Shown in pieces: positions 11,424 through 20,320 of a stretch of DNA of 64,000 nt (positions within the stretch are counted from its first letter, which is position 1; every line of letters begins with the position of its first letter). Position numbers and translations under genes: made by a program. The notes beneath the pieces are model-generated. The model saw only the letters and a program-made list of their open reading frames with translations. It had not been told where the DNA came from and did not search any database. Origin of the DNA: an uncultured Bacteroidales bacterium. Its GTDB lineage: Bacteria; Bacteroidota; Bacteroidia; Bacteroidales; UBA932. The stretch is from positions 62,001-126,000 of the forward strand of contig CASEOO010000028.1 of the NCBI GenBank assembly GCA_949289565.1, written 5' to 3'.

Positions 11424-13907
11424 TTATGGCACTGCTTCAAAAATTTTTTCGATTTCTGCAGATAAATTTCTAACAGTCTCTGTTTCCTTAAAGTGAAATA
11501 GAGGCGGAATCTGCACCCATCGTTCGTCATTGTCAATGTAACTGCATCCATTCAACAGATTAAGCAGCTCTTTAGCGTATTTCTTTGTTTTGCATTCAAA
11601 CTGTATTTTCAGTTCGTGGTGCTGGCAGAATCCTATCCATAATGTACATTGTTTCCGTTCTTGCTTGAGCCAAATGTAGTTGCCGAAACTGTCGCCATAT
11701 TGTTTGTACATCTCGAGCTGATTTGAATAGCAATATTCAAAACCATAATTGTTGGCTATGGTATTTGCTATCTTCGCTCTTTCTGTATCAAGCGCCACCC
11801 TTGCAAATTGTTTCCTTGGAACTGCAAACATTATGTGGCCTTCATACCAATATACTCTAAATACAGCTTTCCCGCTTGCTTCTTCACTTGCAACCCAATC
11901 ATATAGCTTAATATCGTGACGAATCCTGTCTACAGCCATGTTGCAGTATTCAATTTCTATGTCTGAAGCACCAGTCCACGGCGTAAAATCTTTAGCTCTG
12001 CCGATATACTCAGCAAGCCTTTCTTTAACGGCTTCGGCATTGTCTCCCTCCAGAACATCTGCCAGCATTTGCCTTACATCATTGTTCGATGCCAAGATGT
12101 TCTTTAAGTATTTATTAGTTTCCGCCCGTTCTGTTATAAAACGGTTTTTTATGTCGTTCCATGTAGCAAACTGACTCGCAATTGCACGAATCAACAGGTG
12201 GTCTTGACGATATGCCGGTGAAATGCCATATTCATCAAACATGTCTTTGGCAAGAGATAAACTATGCCGGTACTCAGGTAAGGACATGTCTTCTTTATAG
12301 AAGAACATTACCATACCTTTAAAGTATGGATGCTTTTCAGCATCTTCAAATACAGGCAGCCATTCATCGTTTTCAGCTATACGCGAAGCTTTCAACACCT
12401 CTTCAAGCAAAGCTCTGTTCTCCCTGTCATCAGCATTGTCTTCTTTCCACTGAGAAAGAGCATAGTAAAACGATTCTTTTTCTGACATTCTTTTGGCAAT
12501 GCTGTGAATAACAGCGGAGAATTTCCTGATCAACGATGATACAGGAGTCAGGCTGTCAATATTCGTGTTTTCGACCACATTCCATACAATGCGCATCCAT
12601 TGTTTGAAAGTATCTGCTTCAAATGACTCAAAAGCTTCAATAAATTCAATGACAGCACCAAACACAATTATCTTGATGTGTGTCATCTTGGAATTGATAT
12701 TGCTGTAGAAATCATCTCCATTCAATAATGGTTTTTCCCATGCAGGAACCATCATTTCGTATATAACCTTTCTCGAATCTTTGAAATCATATTGATAAAA
12801 GGTGTCAAGCACTTTGTCTAATGTCAGCACGTATTCCGGATGATTTGTTAGAATCGACTCAAATTCCTGGAATCCAAGGTATTCGTTAACCTCTGTCCGG
12901 TTTTCTGCATCTGTATAAATCTTCCTCAATGTGATGTCCTGCCGCATATCCCTGTCATTGACAATATCTTTGGAGGCGACGATGTATTTGCATGCAAAGA
13001 ATCGGGAGAAGAAGCTCATATAAGAAGCGTCAAAGTTCTCAAATCCTTTCCTCCAGAACATGTCAATCCATTTGGCATCCAGTTTGACCGAGAAATTGAA
13101 ATGGAATTCAACAGTCTCTTCGCTGTCTTTACGATAGAGAGGAACAAGTTTTTTAAATGGCGGATAATCGATGCCTCCAATATAATTTGTCAGGTCGGCC
13201 TTGAAGTTCTCAAATGGACTTAGCTGCAAGCCTCGGGCATTCATCTTGATATACAATTCTTCAGACAGATTGAAGAAGCCCAATGACTTTACATAGAACT
13301 GGATATTTGCCAACTTCGTGTAAAGGTTGTTGTTATCTTGGTTGATATATCGTTCATGTATGGCATCAAGCATTGTAAGCATAGCTGTTATGGTGCTGTC
13401 TCTGTCGAATGACTTGAAATACCATTTTGCTTGTCTGATCACTTTAGATGGCGTCTGTCCAGATAAATCAATGCGATACGAGGCGAGTTTATGACAAAAT
13501 ACGGTTGACGTGGAACGTGTTTCATAGACGAAGCGATTCAGGGCGTCACGTATTGCTTTATCCTCCTCATCTTCTTCTGTCAACTCACAATTGGCTATAT
13601 ACCAGTAAACGAGGAACAAAGTAGTCATGCGTTGCTGACCATCCAGAAGTTCCATCACATATTCATCGTTTGAAGGACGGACAATGCCATAGATGAAATT
13701 GAAATCAAATATCTCGTCTGTTTTAAAATTCGCAAACATTTCATTCAAAAGGGTATTGCGAACATAGGTACATACACCGTCCATCCTGCCTTGCGCATAA
13801 GGGCGTTGTATCTTCGGGATGATAATCTGACTGACTTTAACCTTCGTATCTTTGTTAAGATCAAGATCTTTCCTATATATGTCAATAAATGTATATCTCT
13901 CGTTCAT
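11424..13907 (-). CDS. DUF262 domain protein, large, without recognisable HNH domain
   Basis: 827 residues. The N-terminal DUF262 domain (ParB/sulfiredoxin-like, found in GmrS/BrxU/SspE-type nucleases) is marked by IPKIQRPYAQGR near 31-41 and ELLDGQQRMTTLF with Asp89. In GmrSD-type enzymes this domain binds nucleotide and gates nuclease activity. No DUF1524 HNH motif is seen; the C-terminal 250 residues are unassigned. The start codon overlaps the stop of the upstream DUF262-DUF1524 gene (ATGA, 13904-13907), so the two are co-translated. The region is visibly AT-richer than its flanks, suggesting horizontal acquisition. Defence against modified phage DNA is the likeliest role, by family only. 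Confidence 0.82.
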   Translation of the reverse strand: MNERYTFIDIYRKDLDLNKDTKVKVSQIIIPKIQRPYAQGRMDGVCTYVRNTLLNEMFANFKTDEIFDFNFIYGIVRPSNDEYVMELLDGQQRMTTLFLVYWYIANCELTEEDEEDKAIRDALNRFVYETRSTSTVFCHKLASYRIDLSGQTPSKVIRQAKWYFKSFDRDSTITAMLTMLDAIHERYINQDNNNLYTKLANIQFYVKSLGFFNLSEELYIKMNARGLQLSPFENFKADLTNYIGGIDYPPFKKLVPLYRKDSEETVEFHFNFSVKLDAKWIDMFWRKGFENFDASYMSFFSRFFACKYIVASKDIVNDRDMRQDITLRKIYTDAENRTEVNEYLGFQEFESILTNHPEYVLTLDKVLDTFYQYDFKDSRKVIYEMMVPAWEKPLLNGDDFYSNINSKMTHIKIIVFGAVIEFIEAFESFEADTFKQWMRIVWNVVENTNIDSLTPVSSLIRKFSAVIHSIAKRMSEKESFYYALSQWKEDNADDRENRALLEEVLKASRIAENDEWLPVFEDAEKHPYFKGMVMFFYKEDMSLPEYRHSLSLAKDMFDEYGISPAYRQDHLLIRAIASQFATWNDIKNRFITERAETNKYLKNILASNNDVRQMLADVLEGDNAEAVKERLAEYIGRAKDFTPWTGASDIEIEYCNMAVDRIRHDIKLYDWVASEEASGKAVFRVYWYEGHIMFAVPRKQFARVALDTERAKIANTIANNYGFEYCYSNQLEMYKQYGDSFGNYIWLKQERKQCTLWIGFCQHHELKIQFECKTKKYAKELLNLLNGCSYIDNDERWVQIPPLFHFKETETVRNLSAEIEKIFEAVP

Positions 13908-15889
13908 TGCTCATCCTCCTCATTGCTTGCATAGTTTATAATAATATCATAAACGTATTTGTGATACGCATTCATGTCTTCTTCTGTCCAAAGAGAACGA
14001 TTCGTTCCCTTCTGGTCAAAGAATTTTGCAAAAATGTATTGTGTGGCGATAGGAACAAATATACCTTGCTTGATGCGCTCAATGATAATGCGGCGTTTGG
14101 TACAGAAAAGGCTGTTTCCATACATCCTGTTTGTGGCCGCATCAAGAAGTGTCAAATTGCCTATGGAGTTTTTAATCTCCTCATCCGCCTCTACCTCCTT
14201 GGCATTCTTCTTCAATATGTCAATAGCTATATCATAGGCTTTTTCTTCCAGATTTTGATTAATCTGCTTACGCTCTTCATCGGTCAGTTCCTCTGAACGG
14301 TCCTCCATTGCTGTCTTGATCCATTCAATTTTGTCTTTCTCCTTCTTCAGAGCATTTGTGTGGAAAGAGTCTACATGCTCAATGTCCCAGTTTTGAGCGC
14401 TAAGCACATCAAATGGGAATTTATATACATCTGAATCTGATTCGAGTTTTTGGTTTTGCTCATTCAGGAGGTGAATGTTCAAAGTCAACAGCAGTTTGTA
14501 GATATTGTCATGCTCCTTATAGGTATTGAGGATTCGTTTATTGTCTTTGTCAATCTTGATGCCTCGAAGATGATAGGATATGCGATTTTTCAAATAAAGT
14601 TCAAATTCATTTCTGGTTGACAGTTTGGACATATTTTCGAAATGAAGAACCAATCGGGACAAGTCTTCGCCGCACTGGCTTAACAAGCCAATGAAATTAT
14701 ATGTCGATGGGGTGCAGAACCAGTCATCGAGTGTGCGGAACAATTCCATCACCTCATTCCATGCGTCAGCAACTTCACGCTGCAAAGCTTCGCCGATTTT
14801 TCCTTCAAATCGGTTATAATAAAAACGGAAAATCTCACTCTGTCTGGTGTCCATTAACTTTTCGTCAATCTCCTTCAAAATATTATCCCACTCCTCTTCT
14901 CGCACATCTTTCAGAACATTCTTTTTATAAATCAGGTTGAAGAGCAGGTCTATCCGGTTAGGCATATCAACGCCTTTCTTTTGAAGGAAGTACCAGAAAT
15001 TGTTGGCATGGAGTGTGTTCTCTATAAGCTCCCATTCCAGAGCCAGCTCCGACTGCTTAATATATTTGTCGCCAGCAGTAAAATTTTTCTTCAACAAAAA
15101 CAGGCCTTTGATAAGTTCAGCATCAGTTAATCTAATCTTGCCAGTATTTATCTTTTGGAACTCCTTAATGTTATTTTTATCCTTGCTCTCAGCGATTTCA
15201 TACCATAACACTTGTACAGAACCTCCTTTGGTGTCGCTCATTCCGTTGAGCAATTTAAAGAAAGAGTTTCTAATATTGTCAAGACTTCCTCCTAATTGAT
15301 AGCGGATATTGATTTCCTTTCCGTCGGTCTTAATCCACTCTGCAATATATTTGAATGCATTTGCCATGTGGAAGAAGTCCACGTTTTCCTTGAAATCATC
15401 TTCGCAGCAGTCCTTTATCTTTTTCATGGACATGCTTTCAAGGAATTTGGCAGAATCATCGCGGGTGGCATAACAAATATGGTACAGCTCCTTTCCGTCC
15501 TCTTCTTCTTTCAGCGTTTCTGCATCCCATCCCTTCTGATCCATAAGATATTTGTATAGAAGGTATATGGTGGTTAATCGCTGCTGGCCGTCAATGATTT
15601 CCCAAACTCCATGTTTTTTTATGTCATCATTGTATTCATCCTTGAAAATTGATTTCAACTTTTCTTCATCGGTGATTGTGCGTGCAATAATCGGCTGAAG
15701 ACAATAGAATTGGTCTTGCTTCTTTTCTTTCCCTTCATTTGCAAAGTCATTTGCGAAACATAAAAGGTCTCGAAGCAGATCTCCAACCTGTTTCACAGTC
15801 CAACGATAACCTCTTTGATAGGATGGAATGTAGAAATATCTTCCATCAAGGAGCTCGCCTATAGCATATTGGTATATAGAGTTGTCCAT
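13904..15889 (-). CDS. DUF262-DUF1524 protein (GmrSD-like putative restriction endonuclease)
   Basis: 661 residues. DUF262 is at the N-terminus: IPSYQRGYRW at 21-30 and IIDGQQRLTTIYLL with Asp100. The C-terminal DUF1524 (HNH-superfamily nuclease) is marked by NWDIEHVDSFH near residue 500 and NLTLLDAATNRMYGN near 580, which supply the His and Asn positions of an HNH fold. This domain pair is that of GmrSD, BrxU and SspE, enzymes that cut or nick modified phage DNA. First gene of a two-gene minus-strand operon; the second DUF262 protein overlaps it by four bases. No methylase or phosphorothioation gene lies nearby, so the target modification is unknown. Confidence 0.86.
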   Translation of the reverse strand: MDNSIYQYAIGELLDGRYFYIPSYQRGYRWTVKQVGDLLRDLLCFANDFANEGKEKKQDQFYCLQPIIARTITDEEKLKSIFKDEYNDDIKKHGVWEIIDGQQRLTTIYLLYKYLMDQKGWDAETLKEEEDGKELYHICYATRDDSAKFLESMSMKKIKDCCEDDFKENVDFFHMANAFKYIAEWIKTDGKEINIRYQLGGSLDNIRNSFFKLLNGMSDTKGGSVQVLWYEIAESKDKNNIKEFQKINTGKIRLTDAELIKGLFLLKKNFTAGDKYIKQSELALEWELIENTLHANNFWYFLQKKGVDMPNRIDLLFNLIYKKNVLKDVREEEWDNILKEIDEKLMDTRQSEIFRFYYNRFEGKIGEALQREVADAWNEVMELFRTLDDWFCTPSTYNFIGLLSQCGEDLSRLVLHFENMSKLSTRNEFELYLKNRISYHLRGIKIDKDNKRILNTYKEHDNIYKLLLTLNIHLLNEQNQKLESDSDVYKFPFDVLSAQNWDIEHVDSFHTNALKKEKDKIEWIKTAMEDRSEELTDEERKQINQNLEEKAYDIAIDILKKNAKEVEADEEIKNSIGNLTLLDAATNRMYGNSLFCTKRRIIIERIKQGIFVPIATQYIFAKFFDQKGTNRSLWTEEDMNAYHKYVYDIIINYASNEEDEQ

Positions 15890-16047: not shown

Positions 16048-16172
16048 AAGTTTATTTCACGACTAAATTAATGCGTAACAAGAATATTGGTGGCATTTAT
16101 TTCCGGACCTGTTTTTTCTGGCCAGAAAAAAATATCTGCCAATATGATAAAATTTCAAAAAAATCAAAAATC

Positions 16173-16270
16173 TTAACCGAAACTTAACAAATCTTAACGC
16201 AAACTTAATAATCGTTAACAACATCGTAACTTAATCGTAAAAATCCCGACAAATTCTCACTATACCTTTG
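16173..16270 (+). promoter_or_regulatory. Seven-half-site PHO-box-like array and TAnnTTTG promoter
   Basis: TTAAC-like half-sites start at 16173, 16184, 16194, 16205, 16215, 16226 and 16237 (TTAAC three times, TTAAT, TTAAC, GTAAC, GTAAA). Steps are 11,10,11,10,11,11, so all lie on one face of the helix. TACCTTTG at 16263-16270 is a -7 box; no -33 TTTG is present, as expected for an activator-dependent promoter. Tandem half-sites with 11-bp period are the mark of PhoB/PhoP-type OmpR-family regulators (B. subtilis PhoP uses TTAACA-like repeats). The rest of the 409-bp gap (15890-16298) is AT-rich and shows no coding frame of note. Confidence 0.6.
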
Positions 16271-16298: not shown

Positions 16299-19061
16299 GT
16301 GAGAAAACTGAAACTTATTCTGGCCATCGCTGTCGTATTTTTCGGCCAGATCACGACCCAGAAGGCGGTCGCAGCTCCGGAAGAAGCCGGAGACATTCTT
16401 AAAGGTATAGTAATAGACGCCGAAACACAGGAGCCGCTTATCGGCGCGGCCATCATGGTGAGCAACACTACCGAAGGAGTCATCACTGACCTGGACGGAA
16501 GCTTCATCATAAATCTCCTCAGGGACAACACTCCGTTCGAAGTCTCCTATATAGGATACAAGACTGTGCCGTTCTCGATAGTCACTGCAGGCGGCTCCAT
16601 GAAACTCGATGTGAACCCTGAATATGCCGGAAGCATATCCCTGACGGGCAATGCACTGACGATACTCATGTTCCCTGACGGCGAAATGCTCCAGAACGCC
16701 GTAGTGACAGGCCGCAAGACTCTCGAATCGCTCCAGGCGCTTCAGAACGAAAGAATCACCTCCGGTTTCGCCATAGAAAACATGGGAGCCAAGGAAATGA
16801 GCCTGAAAGGAATATCGAACGCTCAGGAAAGCGTGGCCAAACTATCCGGAATATCCATCGCCAGCGCTGGCCAGCTTATAGTCCGCGGACTTGGCGACAG
16901 GTACAGCACCACCACGCTGAACGGCCTGCCGATAGCATCGCCGAACCCGGACAACAAGCTTATCCCGTTGGATATATTCCCGGCATCCACCATACAAAAC
17001 ATCACCGTGAGCAAGGTATATGAAGCCAGCTCGTATGCCGACTATTCCGGAGCGCACGTGGATATAAGCACGAAGGAAGGCAAGAGCGAAGATTTCTTCA
17101 ATGTATCGTTCTCTACAGGAGGATACTTCCAGACTCTCGCAAACGACTTTTACAGGATGGACGGCAAAAGCCTGTTCCTGACACAATGCCTTGACCCTGA
17201 AGCAGAGAGCATAGCATACGGAGACTTCCGGGATTACGTGAAGTCGAAAGACATCTTCGGCACGACTTTCCGCACCTATAAGAGAAATCCGCTTCCGGAC
17301 CTCGACGGCGGCGTAGGATTCGGAAAGAGCTTCCCTGTCGGAAACCAGACTCTCAGCCTGGTGGCTTCGGCCAGCATCAAGACCGGGGATGAAACCATGA
17401 CAGATGCGTTCTACAGGACTTATGAAGCCAGTTCGGCCGGCAGCATGCAGAGTGATTATACATACGACAGCTACGGGCAGAAAATAGACATTGCCGCTCT
17501 CGTGGACCTCGACTATACTCTGCGCCAGAGCGACAATATAGGCCTGACCGTCTTCTTCGCCAGAAACGCCAAGGACTCGCACCTCGACAGGCACGGCATC
17601 GACTACCAGGAATCCTACGACCTGATAGGAAGCAACCAGGTCACACACATATATACCCTTCAGAACTACCAGCTGTCAGGACATCATGAAGCGGCCAGAT
17701 GGCTCATAGACTGGGGCGCTTCCTATACCATGTCCGCCAGCGACGAACCGGACAGACGCCAGGTGATGTACCGCCGCGGAGCCGATGACCAGTGGTATTT
17801 TTTCAAGCTGAACCAGCAGGAGACCCAGAGATATTTCGGAAAACTCAGCGAAAATGAACTCGTGGCCGATATCAAGGCGACATACAATATAAATGAATAC
17901 AACAAGGTCCGTTTCGGCCTTTCGGCCAAAGACAAGGTCCGCAAGTTCCGCACCACCAGATTCTACTATGATGTCAGGAACATCAATGATCCGGTGACAG
18001 ATTTCCACAATCCTGATGCATACCTGAACTTCGCAAATCTGCAGGACGGACTGATATCGGTGAATCGCAGCCAGTTCGACAGAGACCAGTACGATGCCTC
18101 AAACATCATCGGGGCAGGATTCATAGAAACTGATCTCAAATTCGGCGACAGATGGTACCTGAATGCAGGTCTCCGTATGGAAGCCAGCCGCCAGAGCGTC
18201 GACTACAACGATGACGTGGAAAACCTCACCAGAAATCTTGACGCTTTCGACTTCTTCCCGGCTATCAACGTAAAATATGATGTTACAGCGAACAGCATGT
18301 TGAGGCTCTCTCTGTCACGCACCATCACCAGGCCGTCATTCATAGAAATGGCCCCTTTCCTCTATCAGGAAAGTTTCGGGGGTGCGCAGATAAGAGGTAA
18401 CGAAGAGCTCGAAAACGGATACAACTACAACTTCGACCTGAAATATGAACTCTTTTCGGAGAAAAATACAGACATGTTCGCTGTGACTGCATATTTCAAA
18501 TACCTCGAAAGCCCTATCGAGAGGACACAGAGACTCTCCGGCGGAGCTACAGAACATTCATTCCAGAATGCCGACAACGGTATAGCCGCAGGTGTGGAAG
18601 TCGAGTTCCGCAAGGAAATAGTGAAGAATCTGGCAGTCAGCGCCAATGCGTCCTACATGTACACGAACGTGATACTTCCGGAAGGAGGAGTGTACACGAA
18701 CCAGCAGAGGTCACTTCAGGGGGCGTCTCCATACCTTGCGAACGCAGATATCAGCTACACTCCTGAGTTCCGGAACGGTTCGAGCCTCAGCCTGGCCCTG
18801 CTTTACAATCTCCAGGGACCGAGAATCCATGCTGTCGGCATCATGGGGCTGGGAGATGTGAAACAGATGCCTCTGAACACTCTCGATTTCGTGGCGACCT
18901 ACAATATCGACAAGCATTTTTCGGTGAAGATGGCATTCAACAACATGCTGGACTCCACCATCAGGTTCAAGCAGGAAATCCCTAATGCAGGCAGGACAGT
19001 GGATGTCGAACAGTGGAGAATCGGCGCCGGCTTCGAAATCGGCATAAGTTATTCGCTCTGA
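16299..19061 (+). CDS. TonB-dependent outer-membrane receptor (non-SusC type)
   Basis: 920 residues from a GTG start, with a signal peptide ending near AVAA (residue 25). A CarboxypepD_reg-like domain follows (GIVIDAETQEPLIGAAIMV, about 33-110), then a plug with VRGLGDRYSTTTLNGLPIASP near 195, then a 22-strand-type barrel ending in GAGFEIGISYSL. The RGLGDRYS plug motif marks a receptor subgroup that occurs without SusD. The partner gene downstream encodes a beta-helix lipoprotein, a pairing seen elsewhere in Bacteroidota. Ligand unknown; the PHO-like array upstream suggests a phosphate-linked nutrient. It transports across the outer membrane using TonB energy. Confidence 0.85.
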   Translation: MRKLKLILAIAVVFFGQITTQKAVAAPEEAGDILKGIVIDAETQEPLIGAAIMVSNTTEGVITDLDGSFIINLLRDNTPFEVSYIGYKTVPFSIVTAGGSMKLDVNPEYAGSISLTGNALTILMFPDGEMLQNAVVTGRKTLESLQALQNERITSGFAIENMGAKEMSLKGISNAQESVAKLSGISIASAGQLIVRGLGDRYSTTTLNGLPIASPNPDNKLIPLDIFPASTIQNITVSKVYEASSYADYSGAHVDISTKEGKSEDFFNVSFSTGGYFQTLANDFYRMDGKSLFLTQCLDPEAESIAYGDFRDYVKSKDIFGTTFRTYKRNPLPDLDGGVGFGKSFPVGNQTLSLVASASIKTGDETMTDAFYRTYEASSAGSMQSDYTYDSYGQKIDIAALVDLDYTLRQSDNIGLTVFFARNAKDSHLDRHGIDYQESYDLIGSNQVTHIYTLQNYQLSGHHEAARWLIDWGASYTMSASDEPDRRQVMYRRGADDQWYFFKLNQQETQRYFGKLSENELVADIKATYNINEYNKVRFGLSAKDKVRKFRTTRFYYDVRNINDPVTDFHNPDAYLNFANLQDGLISVNRSQFDRDQYDASNIIGAGFIETDLKFGDRWYLNAGLRMEASRQSVDYNDDVENLTRNLDAFDFFPAINVKYDVTANSMLRLSLSRTITRPSFIEMAPFLYQESFGGAQIRGNEELENGYNYNFDLKYELFSEKNTDMFAVTAYFKYLESPIERTQRLSGGATEHSFQNADNGIAAGVEVEFRKEIVKNLAVSANASYMYTNVILPEGGVYTNQQRSLQGASPYLANADISYTPEFRNGSSLSLALLYNLQGPRIHAVGIMGLGDVKQMPLNTLDFVATYNIDKHFSVKMAFNNMLDSTIRFKQEIPNAGRTVDVEQWRIGAGFEIGISYSL

Positions 19062-19120: not shown

Positions 19121-20320
19121 ATGAAAACAGTTAAATTTTTCGCAGCGGCAGCCGCTGCAATGGGCATGGTGGCAGGTTTCTCATCATGCGAGAAGGAAGG
19201 AACTGATGGCAACAACGGCGAGGCAGTGGTTCTCGAAGGCGGAGAAATCAGCGGACGTTATTCAAACGACCTCACTCTTAAAAAAGGTGAATATACTCTG
19301 ACCGGCAGCCTCCAGATGGAAGCTCCTGCGACACTCACTATCGAGGCAGGAACGACTGTCACTTCAGCCGCTGCAGGAAACAACATCATCTACATCCTTA
19401 TCGAGCAGGGTGCGAAGATCATTGCCGAAGGTACCGAGTCAGAGCCGATCACGCTGACGGCAGAAGAGAAGAAAGCAGGCGCGTGGGGCGGACTTCATAT
19501 CTGCGGATATGCGCATACCAACGCTTCAGGCGAGACTACTTCTGAAATCGGAGGCGCCCTTTATGGCGGAAGCAATGATTCTGACAATTCCGGAAGCCTC
19601 AAGTATGTGCGCATACAGTATTCAGGTCTTGCCCTGGATTCAGAGCACGAGGCCAACGGTCTGTCGCTTTACGGCGTAGGAAACGGCACCAAGATATCTT
19701 ATGTCCAGGTTCTCGACGGTTCCGATGACGGTATCGAGTTCTTCGGCGGCTCTGCCAATATCGACCACTGCATCGTGGAGAACTGCACCGACGATTCATT
19801 CGACTGGACAGAAGGCTGGAACGGCACCGCAGAGTATATCGTGGCTTACCAGTCTGTGGCAGAGTGCGACTGCCTGATGGAGTGCGACAACAACGGCGAC
19901 AACAATGAAGCTTCCCCGGTAGCTCACCCTACTGTCCGTTACGCTACATTCGTGGGCAACAACAGCGCTGACAATGCCAGAGGCCTCCGTTTCCGTGAAG
20001 GGACTTACGTAAATCTCGAATATGCTCTTGTGACAGGCAAGCCGAAGCCGATCACACTTGAGACCACCTATACAGACGCTTCGTTTGCTGACGGTACATC
20101 GTCAATCAAAAACACTTGCATTTCGGGCAAACTCGTGAATGAAGTGGTGGATGACCAGGATAAGAATGTCGGCACATATTTCAACGATGATTTCGTATAT
20201 GACGGCAATACCGCCGATTATGATTTCTCAGGTGTCTTTACAGACAATTTCATCGGCAAAGTCGGCCAGAGCGGAGCAGTATCTGCTGATGACAACTGGA
20301 CGGCCGGCTGGACTCTGTAA
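19121..20320 (+). CDS. Right-handed beta-helix surface lipoprotein
   Basis: 399 residues if read from the ATG at 19121 (MKTVKFFAAAAAAMGMV), which gives a clean lipoprotein signal with lipobox FSSC at residue 23; ATGs at 19088 and further upstream are in frame but would bury the signal. Charged residues after the Cys favour surface export. The body is a solenoid of beta-helix rungs with alternating short strands: LTIEAGTTV, SLKYVRIQYSG, ISYVQVLDGSDDGIEFFGG, IDHCIVENC. It lies 59 bases after the TonB-dependent receptor, probably in one transcript ended by the hairpin at 20350, and may capture the receptor's ligand. No enzyme motif was recognised. Confidence 0.78.
   Translation: MKTVKFFAAAAAAMGMVAGFSSCEKEGTDGNNGEAVVLEGGEISGRYSNDLTLKKGEYTLTGSLQMEAPATLTIEAGTTVTSAAAGNNIIYILIEQGAKIIAEGTESEPITLTAEEKKAGAWGGLHICGYAHTNASGETTSEIGGALYGGSNDSDNSGSLKYVRIQYSGLALDSEHEANGLSLYGVGNGTKISYVQVLDGSDDGIEFFGGSANIDHCIVENCTDDSFDWTEGWNGTAEYIVAYQSVAECDCLMECDNNGDNNEASPVAHPTVRYATFVGNNSADNARGLRFREGTYVNLEYALVTGKPKPITLETTYTDASFADGTSSIKNTCISGKLVNEVVDDQDKNVGTYFNDDFVYDGNTADYDFSGVFTDNFIGKVGQSGAVSADDNWTAGWTL

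Follow-up and report, generated by a model that had tools for sequence, protein, structure and literature searches.

The window, the whole 64-kb stretch of DNA analysed here, carries a gene for a TonB-dependent receptor followed by one for a predicted surface lipoprotein, and a phased array of short direct repeats precedes the pair (Table 1). The Plug (PF07715) and barrel (PF00593) domains of the receptor score above cut-off. Membership of the SusC/RagA family was considered and rejected, with 55.2 bits for TIGR04056 (NCBIfam) against a cut-off of 368.25. In a Pfam search the lipoprotein matched no family, SusD included; its lipobox cysteine is near-invariant among relatives. Its AlphaFold2 model (mean pLDDT 88) is grouped by VIA-align with right-handed beta-helix proteins, the best being AlgG epimerase (Z 24.2, rmsd 3.4 over 268 residues). 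Foldseek with this model returned nothing below E 1e-3, and a sequence search of solved structures returned nothing at E 1. The order is receptor then lipoprotein, and a lipoprotein relative lies 3' of the receptor in 55 of 64 loci; as judged with a simple ORF caller, two of the exceptions end within the receptor (L026, L042) and seven have a different ORF (L034, L039, L041, L044, L046, L057, L058).

Table 1. Features of the receptor locus, in window coordinates (start only for half-sites).
Feature	Position	Strand	Basis
Half-site 1, CTTAAC	16172	+	read from sequence
Half-site 2, CTTAAC	16183	+	read from sequence
Half-site 3, CTTAAC	16193	+	read from sequence
Half-site 4, CTTAAT	16204	+	read from sequence
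Half-site 5, GTTAAC	16214	+	read from sequence
Half-site 6, CGTAAC	16225	+	read from sequence
Half-site 7, CGTAAA	16236	+	read from sequence
Predicted PHO-box array, seven half-sites	16172..16242	+	sequence, shuffles, matrix scores
Degenerate in-phase eighth position CGACAAA (tentative)	16247..16253	+	orthologue comparison
Bacteroidota -7 box TAccTTTG	16263..16270	+	sequence; background consensus
TonB-dependent receptor, 920 aa (CarboxypepD_reg, Plug, barrel)	16299..19061	+	profile matches
Predicted surface lipoprotein, right-handed parallel beta-helix fold	19121..20320	+	structure model, lipobox alignment

An earlier note on this DNA had described seven TTAAC-like half-sites ending about 21 bases before a -7 box without a -33 element, and the sequence agrees exactly. 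The steps are 11, 10, 11, 10, 11 and 11 bases, 21 bases (16242-16262) separate the last hexamer from the -7 box, and the stretch inspected holds no TTTG at the -33 position of the receptor promoter. The consensus of the Bacteroidota -7 box is TAnnTTTG. The tentative eighth position lies 16 bases before this box, a place that holds a good half-site in many orthologues. Within the 250 bases before the receptor gene, the longest TTAAC run (at most one mismatch, steps of 10-11) has six members; in 5000 dinucleotide shuffles of this upstream, a run of five arose once and a run of six never. The receptor array is also the sole run of six in the whole window, and the minus strand has one run of five elsewhere. 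A first, untrained consensus matrix separated the window poorly from shuffles, scoring it at 17.7 when the highest shuffle reached 21.3. With a matrix built from phosphate-gene upstreams only, the array scores 35.0 against 12.8 for the next separate place on either strand of the 64 kb, a figure to be read with the knowledge that the 16 training upstreams were chosen from 29 after the weak ones had been seen.

Conservation before receptor orthologues

The closest orthologues of the receptor (94-98%) are found in Bacteroidales assemblies, and Candidatus Cryptobacteroides species are among the assemblies with the next closest. A genome scan gave 64 loci of relatives, from which L062 was dropped because it starts inside the gene, so that the modelled set comprised 64 upstreams (the window and 63 loci). 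The half-site learned from this set is TGTAACA, with T as an alternative at position 2 (TTTAACA). Of the 31 Cryptobacteroides-type upstreams, 30 showed an array at p<0.05 with a matrix trained on the 33 non-Cryptobacteroides Bacteroidales upstreams; with training in the reverse direction, 26 of those 33 did. When scored with the phosphate-gene matrix, and thus with its selected training set, 61 of the 64 receptor upstreams are significant; L028, L044 and L059 are not. The predicted array is conserved across genera before receptor orthologues.

The position of the array relative to the core promoter is conserved as well. Measured between the first bases of the last strong half-site and of the -7 box, the distance is 16 bases in 34 cases, 27 in 11 cases, the value also found in the window, and 38 in one, which places 46 of 53 upstreams at 5 mod 11; the box was sought as TTTG[CT], and in 11 of the 64 upstreams none was found. 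The shuffle and Rayleigh p-values ignore the kinship of the sequences.

Likeness to phosphate-gene promoters

The earlier note read the array as one of PhoB/PhoP type and expected to find it before known phosphate genes. Comparison across relatives supports both points. Scored with the receptor-trained matrix, 29 phoB, pst and pit upstreams average 18.7 against 5.4 for 152 controls (Mann-Whitney p=1.6e-12), and 20 of the 29 exceed the control 95th percentile, here with an unselected training set; the starts of three pst genes had been shifted by hand before scoring, and the upstreams are not independent, some phoB/pit and pstC/pstS pairs sharing one intergenic region. Matches to the PhoB model were left unscored if they were weak against the PhoB of the window's genome or fell within a pst operon, as were the pst starts of G034 and G040, whose first genes were unrecognised; genes of those two loci fell among the controls. 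The highest-scoring controls include a pstS-like binding protein (L168) and two porins (L169, L043). Strong arrays stand before pstC of B. fragilis, Bacteroides sp. ET71, B. reticulotermitis and B. graminisolvens, before pstS of Odoribacter laneus, and before phoB of B. fragilis, ET71 and B. graminisolvens; half-sites in 11-bp phase are also found ahead of phoB in several Bacteroidales and ahead of pit in Cryptobacteroides relatives. The B. fragilis pstC upstream, for example, reads TGTAACA-TGTAACA-TGAAACA-CTTCAAA-ATTCACA-CTTAATA in steps of 11. No clear array was found before two Alistipes phoB genes, a second Odoribacter pstS and several divergent pstS upstreams. Among phosphate-gene upstreams with a -7 box, nine of 13 (19 tried) have the same phase to it. 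The half-site and phase of the receptor array are shared with phoB, pst and pit promoters, as expected for a putative PhoB-type array.

The genome that contains the window (2.54 Mb, 46 contigs) gives a more mixed picture. The phoB and phoR genes, at G000:C6, diverge from the gene of a Pit-type phosphate transporter and are on a different contig from the receptor-lipoprotein pair; pstS, pstC, pstA, pstB and phoU lie on contig C14. The pattern YKTAACN5YKTAAC has five exact matches in this genome. One is in the receptor array; the others lie between phoB and pit, upstream of pstS, at a Porin_O_P gene on C18 and before the gene of a regulator-propeller protein. Four of the five thus fall at phosphate loci, with the receptor array counted as one, and the pit and pstS matches had already been seen with a looser pattern before this one was chosen. 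The reversed control pattern has seven matches, so the number is not enriched and only the location is informative. Across six genomes the real pattern matches 24 times, 10 of them at a phosphate gene or at this receptor. By matrix score, the expectation that the array recurs before phosphate genes of the same genome holds for pit (20.9, p 0.01) and for the phosphate-selective porin (29.5, p 0.003), but not for phoB (8.7, p 0.26) or pstS (4.9, p 0.36), and no array was found upstream of the genome's alkaline phosphatase gene (PF00245, G000:C43). Because phoB and pstS are weak, this genome supports the reading in part, and most of the weight lies with the comparison across relatives.

The gene pair across the phylum and alternative readings

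Relatives of the lipoprotein occur in 130 of 198 sampled Bacteroidota genomes. We examined 20 distant Bacteroidota loci, chosen from the better-scoring lipoprotein matches and not at random. All 20 have a TonB-dependent receptor-like ORF near the match (24-27% identity to the window receptor), and five lie inside pst/phoU/phoB clusters (L241, L243, L245, L249, L251). Arrays at p<0.05 precede 14 of the 20, including all five cluster loci; that of L251 is CTTAACA, CTTAACA, CTTAATA, CTTAACA in steps of 11. The lipoprotein homologues of L245 and L251 have a T9SS sorting domain, which is consistent with an extracellular place for such proteins. The earlier note had also proposed that the pair takes up a phosphate-containing nutrient or is induced by phosphate starvation. 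The pst/phoU/phoB neighbourhood in these five relatives agrees with such uptake, and a transport role for the predicted operon is suggested by homology and neighbourhood; the pair very probably helps the cell to scavenge phosphorus.

How the array is read depends on what else could have produced or maintained it. The region is AT-rich, and a phased run without function might arise there by chance, but none of the 5000 shuffles matched the run and the array is conserved across genera; we reject this origin, the probability of which is negligible. The array also sits in an intergenic region shared with divergent GmrSD-type (DUF262) genes at 11424-15889 and could in principle control these instead of the receptor. 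That reading is likewise rejected as very improbable: relatives with other genes or none on that side retain the array, 61 of the 64 receptor upstreams being significant with the selected matrix, and the array is phased to the receptor's -7 box. It is quite unlikely, in our judgement, that the array serves another OmpR/PhoB-family response regulator with a similar half-site and no relation to phosphate. Such a regulator is at hand in the second full-length PhoB-like protein of the same genome (G000:C43; 164.6 bits against 197), the motif of the Riemerella regulator is described as resembling that of ArcA (PMC9603813), and the genome's own phoB and pstS arrays are weak. However, the same matrix and phase recur before phoB, pst, pit and the Porin_O_P gene and are rare before controls, and the pair has a pst/pho neighbourhood in distant relatives.

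The last alternative disputes only the transport part. PhoB may bind while the pair serves a role other than phosphorus uptake, such as polysaccharide capture or a change of the envelope in starvation; pectate lyases, epimerases and polygalacturonases have the same beta-helix fold, and an effect on capsule and stress genes is reported for B. fragilis PhoB (PMC3547664). Linkage to pstS, pstCAB and phoU in five of the 20 distant loci and the Pi-starvation role reported for Caulobacter ElpS and a Flavobacterium pair (PMC2996285, PMC8115612) speak against this alternative, and we consider it unlikely. We regard it as highly probable that the array is a long PHO box forming a PhoB-driven promoter of a receptor and lipoprotein that import phosphate or a phosphate-bearing compound.

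Proposed mechanism and relation to known systems

In the mechanism that we propose, phosphate limitation would lead phosphorylated PhoB (the homologue at G000:C6) to assemble head to tail on the array, one half-site per helical turn. Since the promoter-proximal half-sites occupy the place of a -33 element, PhoB probably substitutes for this element and brings RNA polymerase to the -7 box; given the geometry, PhoB on consecutive half-sites activating a -7 promoter is the simplest reading. Induction of a two-gene operon would then supply the TonB-dependent receptor and the surface beta-helix lipoprotein, which together would capture phosphate or a phosphate-bearing compound and import it across the outer membrane, where Pst and Pit would take over. 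Candidate cargoes are Pi and phosphate esters, and the frequent PstS neighbours favour Pi. More tentatively, and with somewhat more doubt than conviction, one could envision the pair as a phylum-wide, PhoB-controlled and TonB-driven outer-membrane importer of phosphate or phosphate esters in gut Bacteroidales and environmental Bacteroidota, a phosphorus counterpart of SusCD with the beta-helix protein as surface capture lid.

Known PHO boxes include the consensus of E. coli PhoB and the TTAACA repeats of Bacillus PhoP. Like the PHO boxes of E. coli, Bacillus, Riemerella and B. fragilis pstC, the window array has one direct-repeat half-site per 11 bp in place of an upstream promoter element. 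It shares the TGTAACA/TTTAACA half-site with them, and such arrays precede phoB, pst and pit within the same order; it differs in having seven or eight half-sites, against two to four in known PHO boxes, and in its pairing with a Bacteroidota -7 box. B. fragilis PhoB is reported to bind a 512-bp pstC promoter fragment in EMSA, leaving a control fragment unbound (PMC3547664), in a strain that differs from the one whose pstC upstream was analysed here. The main text of that paper, which also reports an influence of PhoB on capsule and stress genes, mentions no TonB receptor. For Riemerella PhoP, a DAP-seq motif TTTAACA and binding before a TonB-dependent receptor gene are described (PMC9603813).

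The protein pair has described counterparts. Fjoh_0545 (TBDT) and Fjoh_0546 of F. johnsoniae, the latter an FII lipoprotein of beta-helix type (IPR011050), belong to a phoBR operon and are reported to be strongly induced on Pi depletion (PMC8115612). By description, both this pair and that of the window comprise a CarboxypepD_reg TonB receptor beside a beta-helix-type lipoprotein, but the window pair lies on another contig than phoBR. FI and FII lipoproteins are said there to be related to ElpS (CC0170) of Caulobacter crescentus, a surface lipoprotein made in phosphate starvation and encoded beside the TonB-dependent receptor CC0171 (PMC2996285). The window pair resembles this arrangement, again by description, and has the trait of a gene for a beta-helix lipoprotein (modelled fold) beside a TonB-dependent receptor; unlike the window pair, ElpS adjoins T2SS genes. 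According to the same account, CC0171 is constitutive and not phosphate-regulated, and ElpS homologues exist in Bacteroides species (PMC2996285). SusCD and PusCD likewise combine a TonB-dependent channel with a surface lipoprotein, but the window receptor falls below the SusC/RagA cut-off and its lipoprotein, modelled as a beta-helix, has no SusD match. In the open-licence literature, the terms used retrieved nothing that describes PHO boxes at Bacteroidales receptor genes. Regulator, motif type and protein pair have each been described in part before. The present analysis brings the three together in gut Bacteroidales and adds the architecture of the array and the way in which it is phased with the -7 box.

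The signature of TGTAACA or TTTAACA every 11 bp, phased to a -7 box, makes Pho regulons callable from sequence in gut Bacteroidales, many of which are uncultured, and a widespread receptor-lipoprotein pair gains a testable role. If the proposal is correct, phosphate would cross the Bacteroidota outer membrane during starvation by active, TonB-driven import, which would be unusual.

Several further loci deserve mention. The phosphate-selective porin gene of the window's genome (PF07396; L204, G000:C18:9043) has TGTAACA-TTTAACA-TGCAACA upstream in steps of 11 and is a further predicted PhoB target. Porin-like genes of BBP2/Porin_4 type at L043:2858-3841 and L169:8967-9953 have high-scoring arrays and are candidate phosphate porins. 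In both G046 and G044, an exact two-half-site match is located before the same NifU-like gene (L202, L210). In the pstS upstreams of the window's genome, G046 and G042 (L125, L160, L164), an 11-bp TTAAC pair points away from the gene; the reversed pairs are significant in the latter two. In the genus sample, one of 31 genomes passes the PstB cut-off, that of the window, and many of the assemblies are incomplete; many Cryptobacteroides may be without a canonical Pst and rely on Pit and the receptor. On the divergent side of the array, the two DUF262/GmrSD-type genes of the window separate it from a NamZ-like gene, and relatives have other defence-like genes there, namely those for an AbiEii and an HTH protein (L004) or AAA/DUF4143 and HSDR-like genes (L001), or none. 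This side looks like a defence insertion spot that spares the array.
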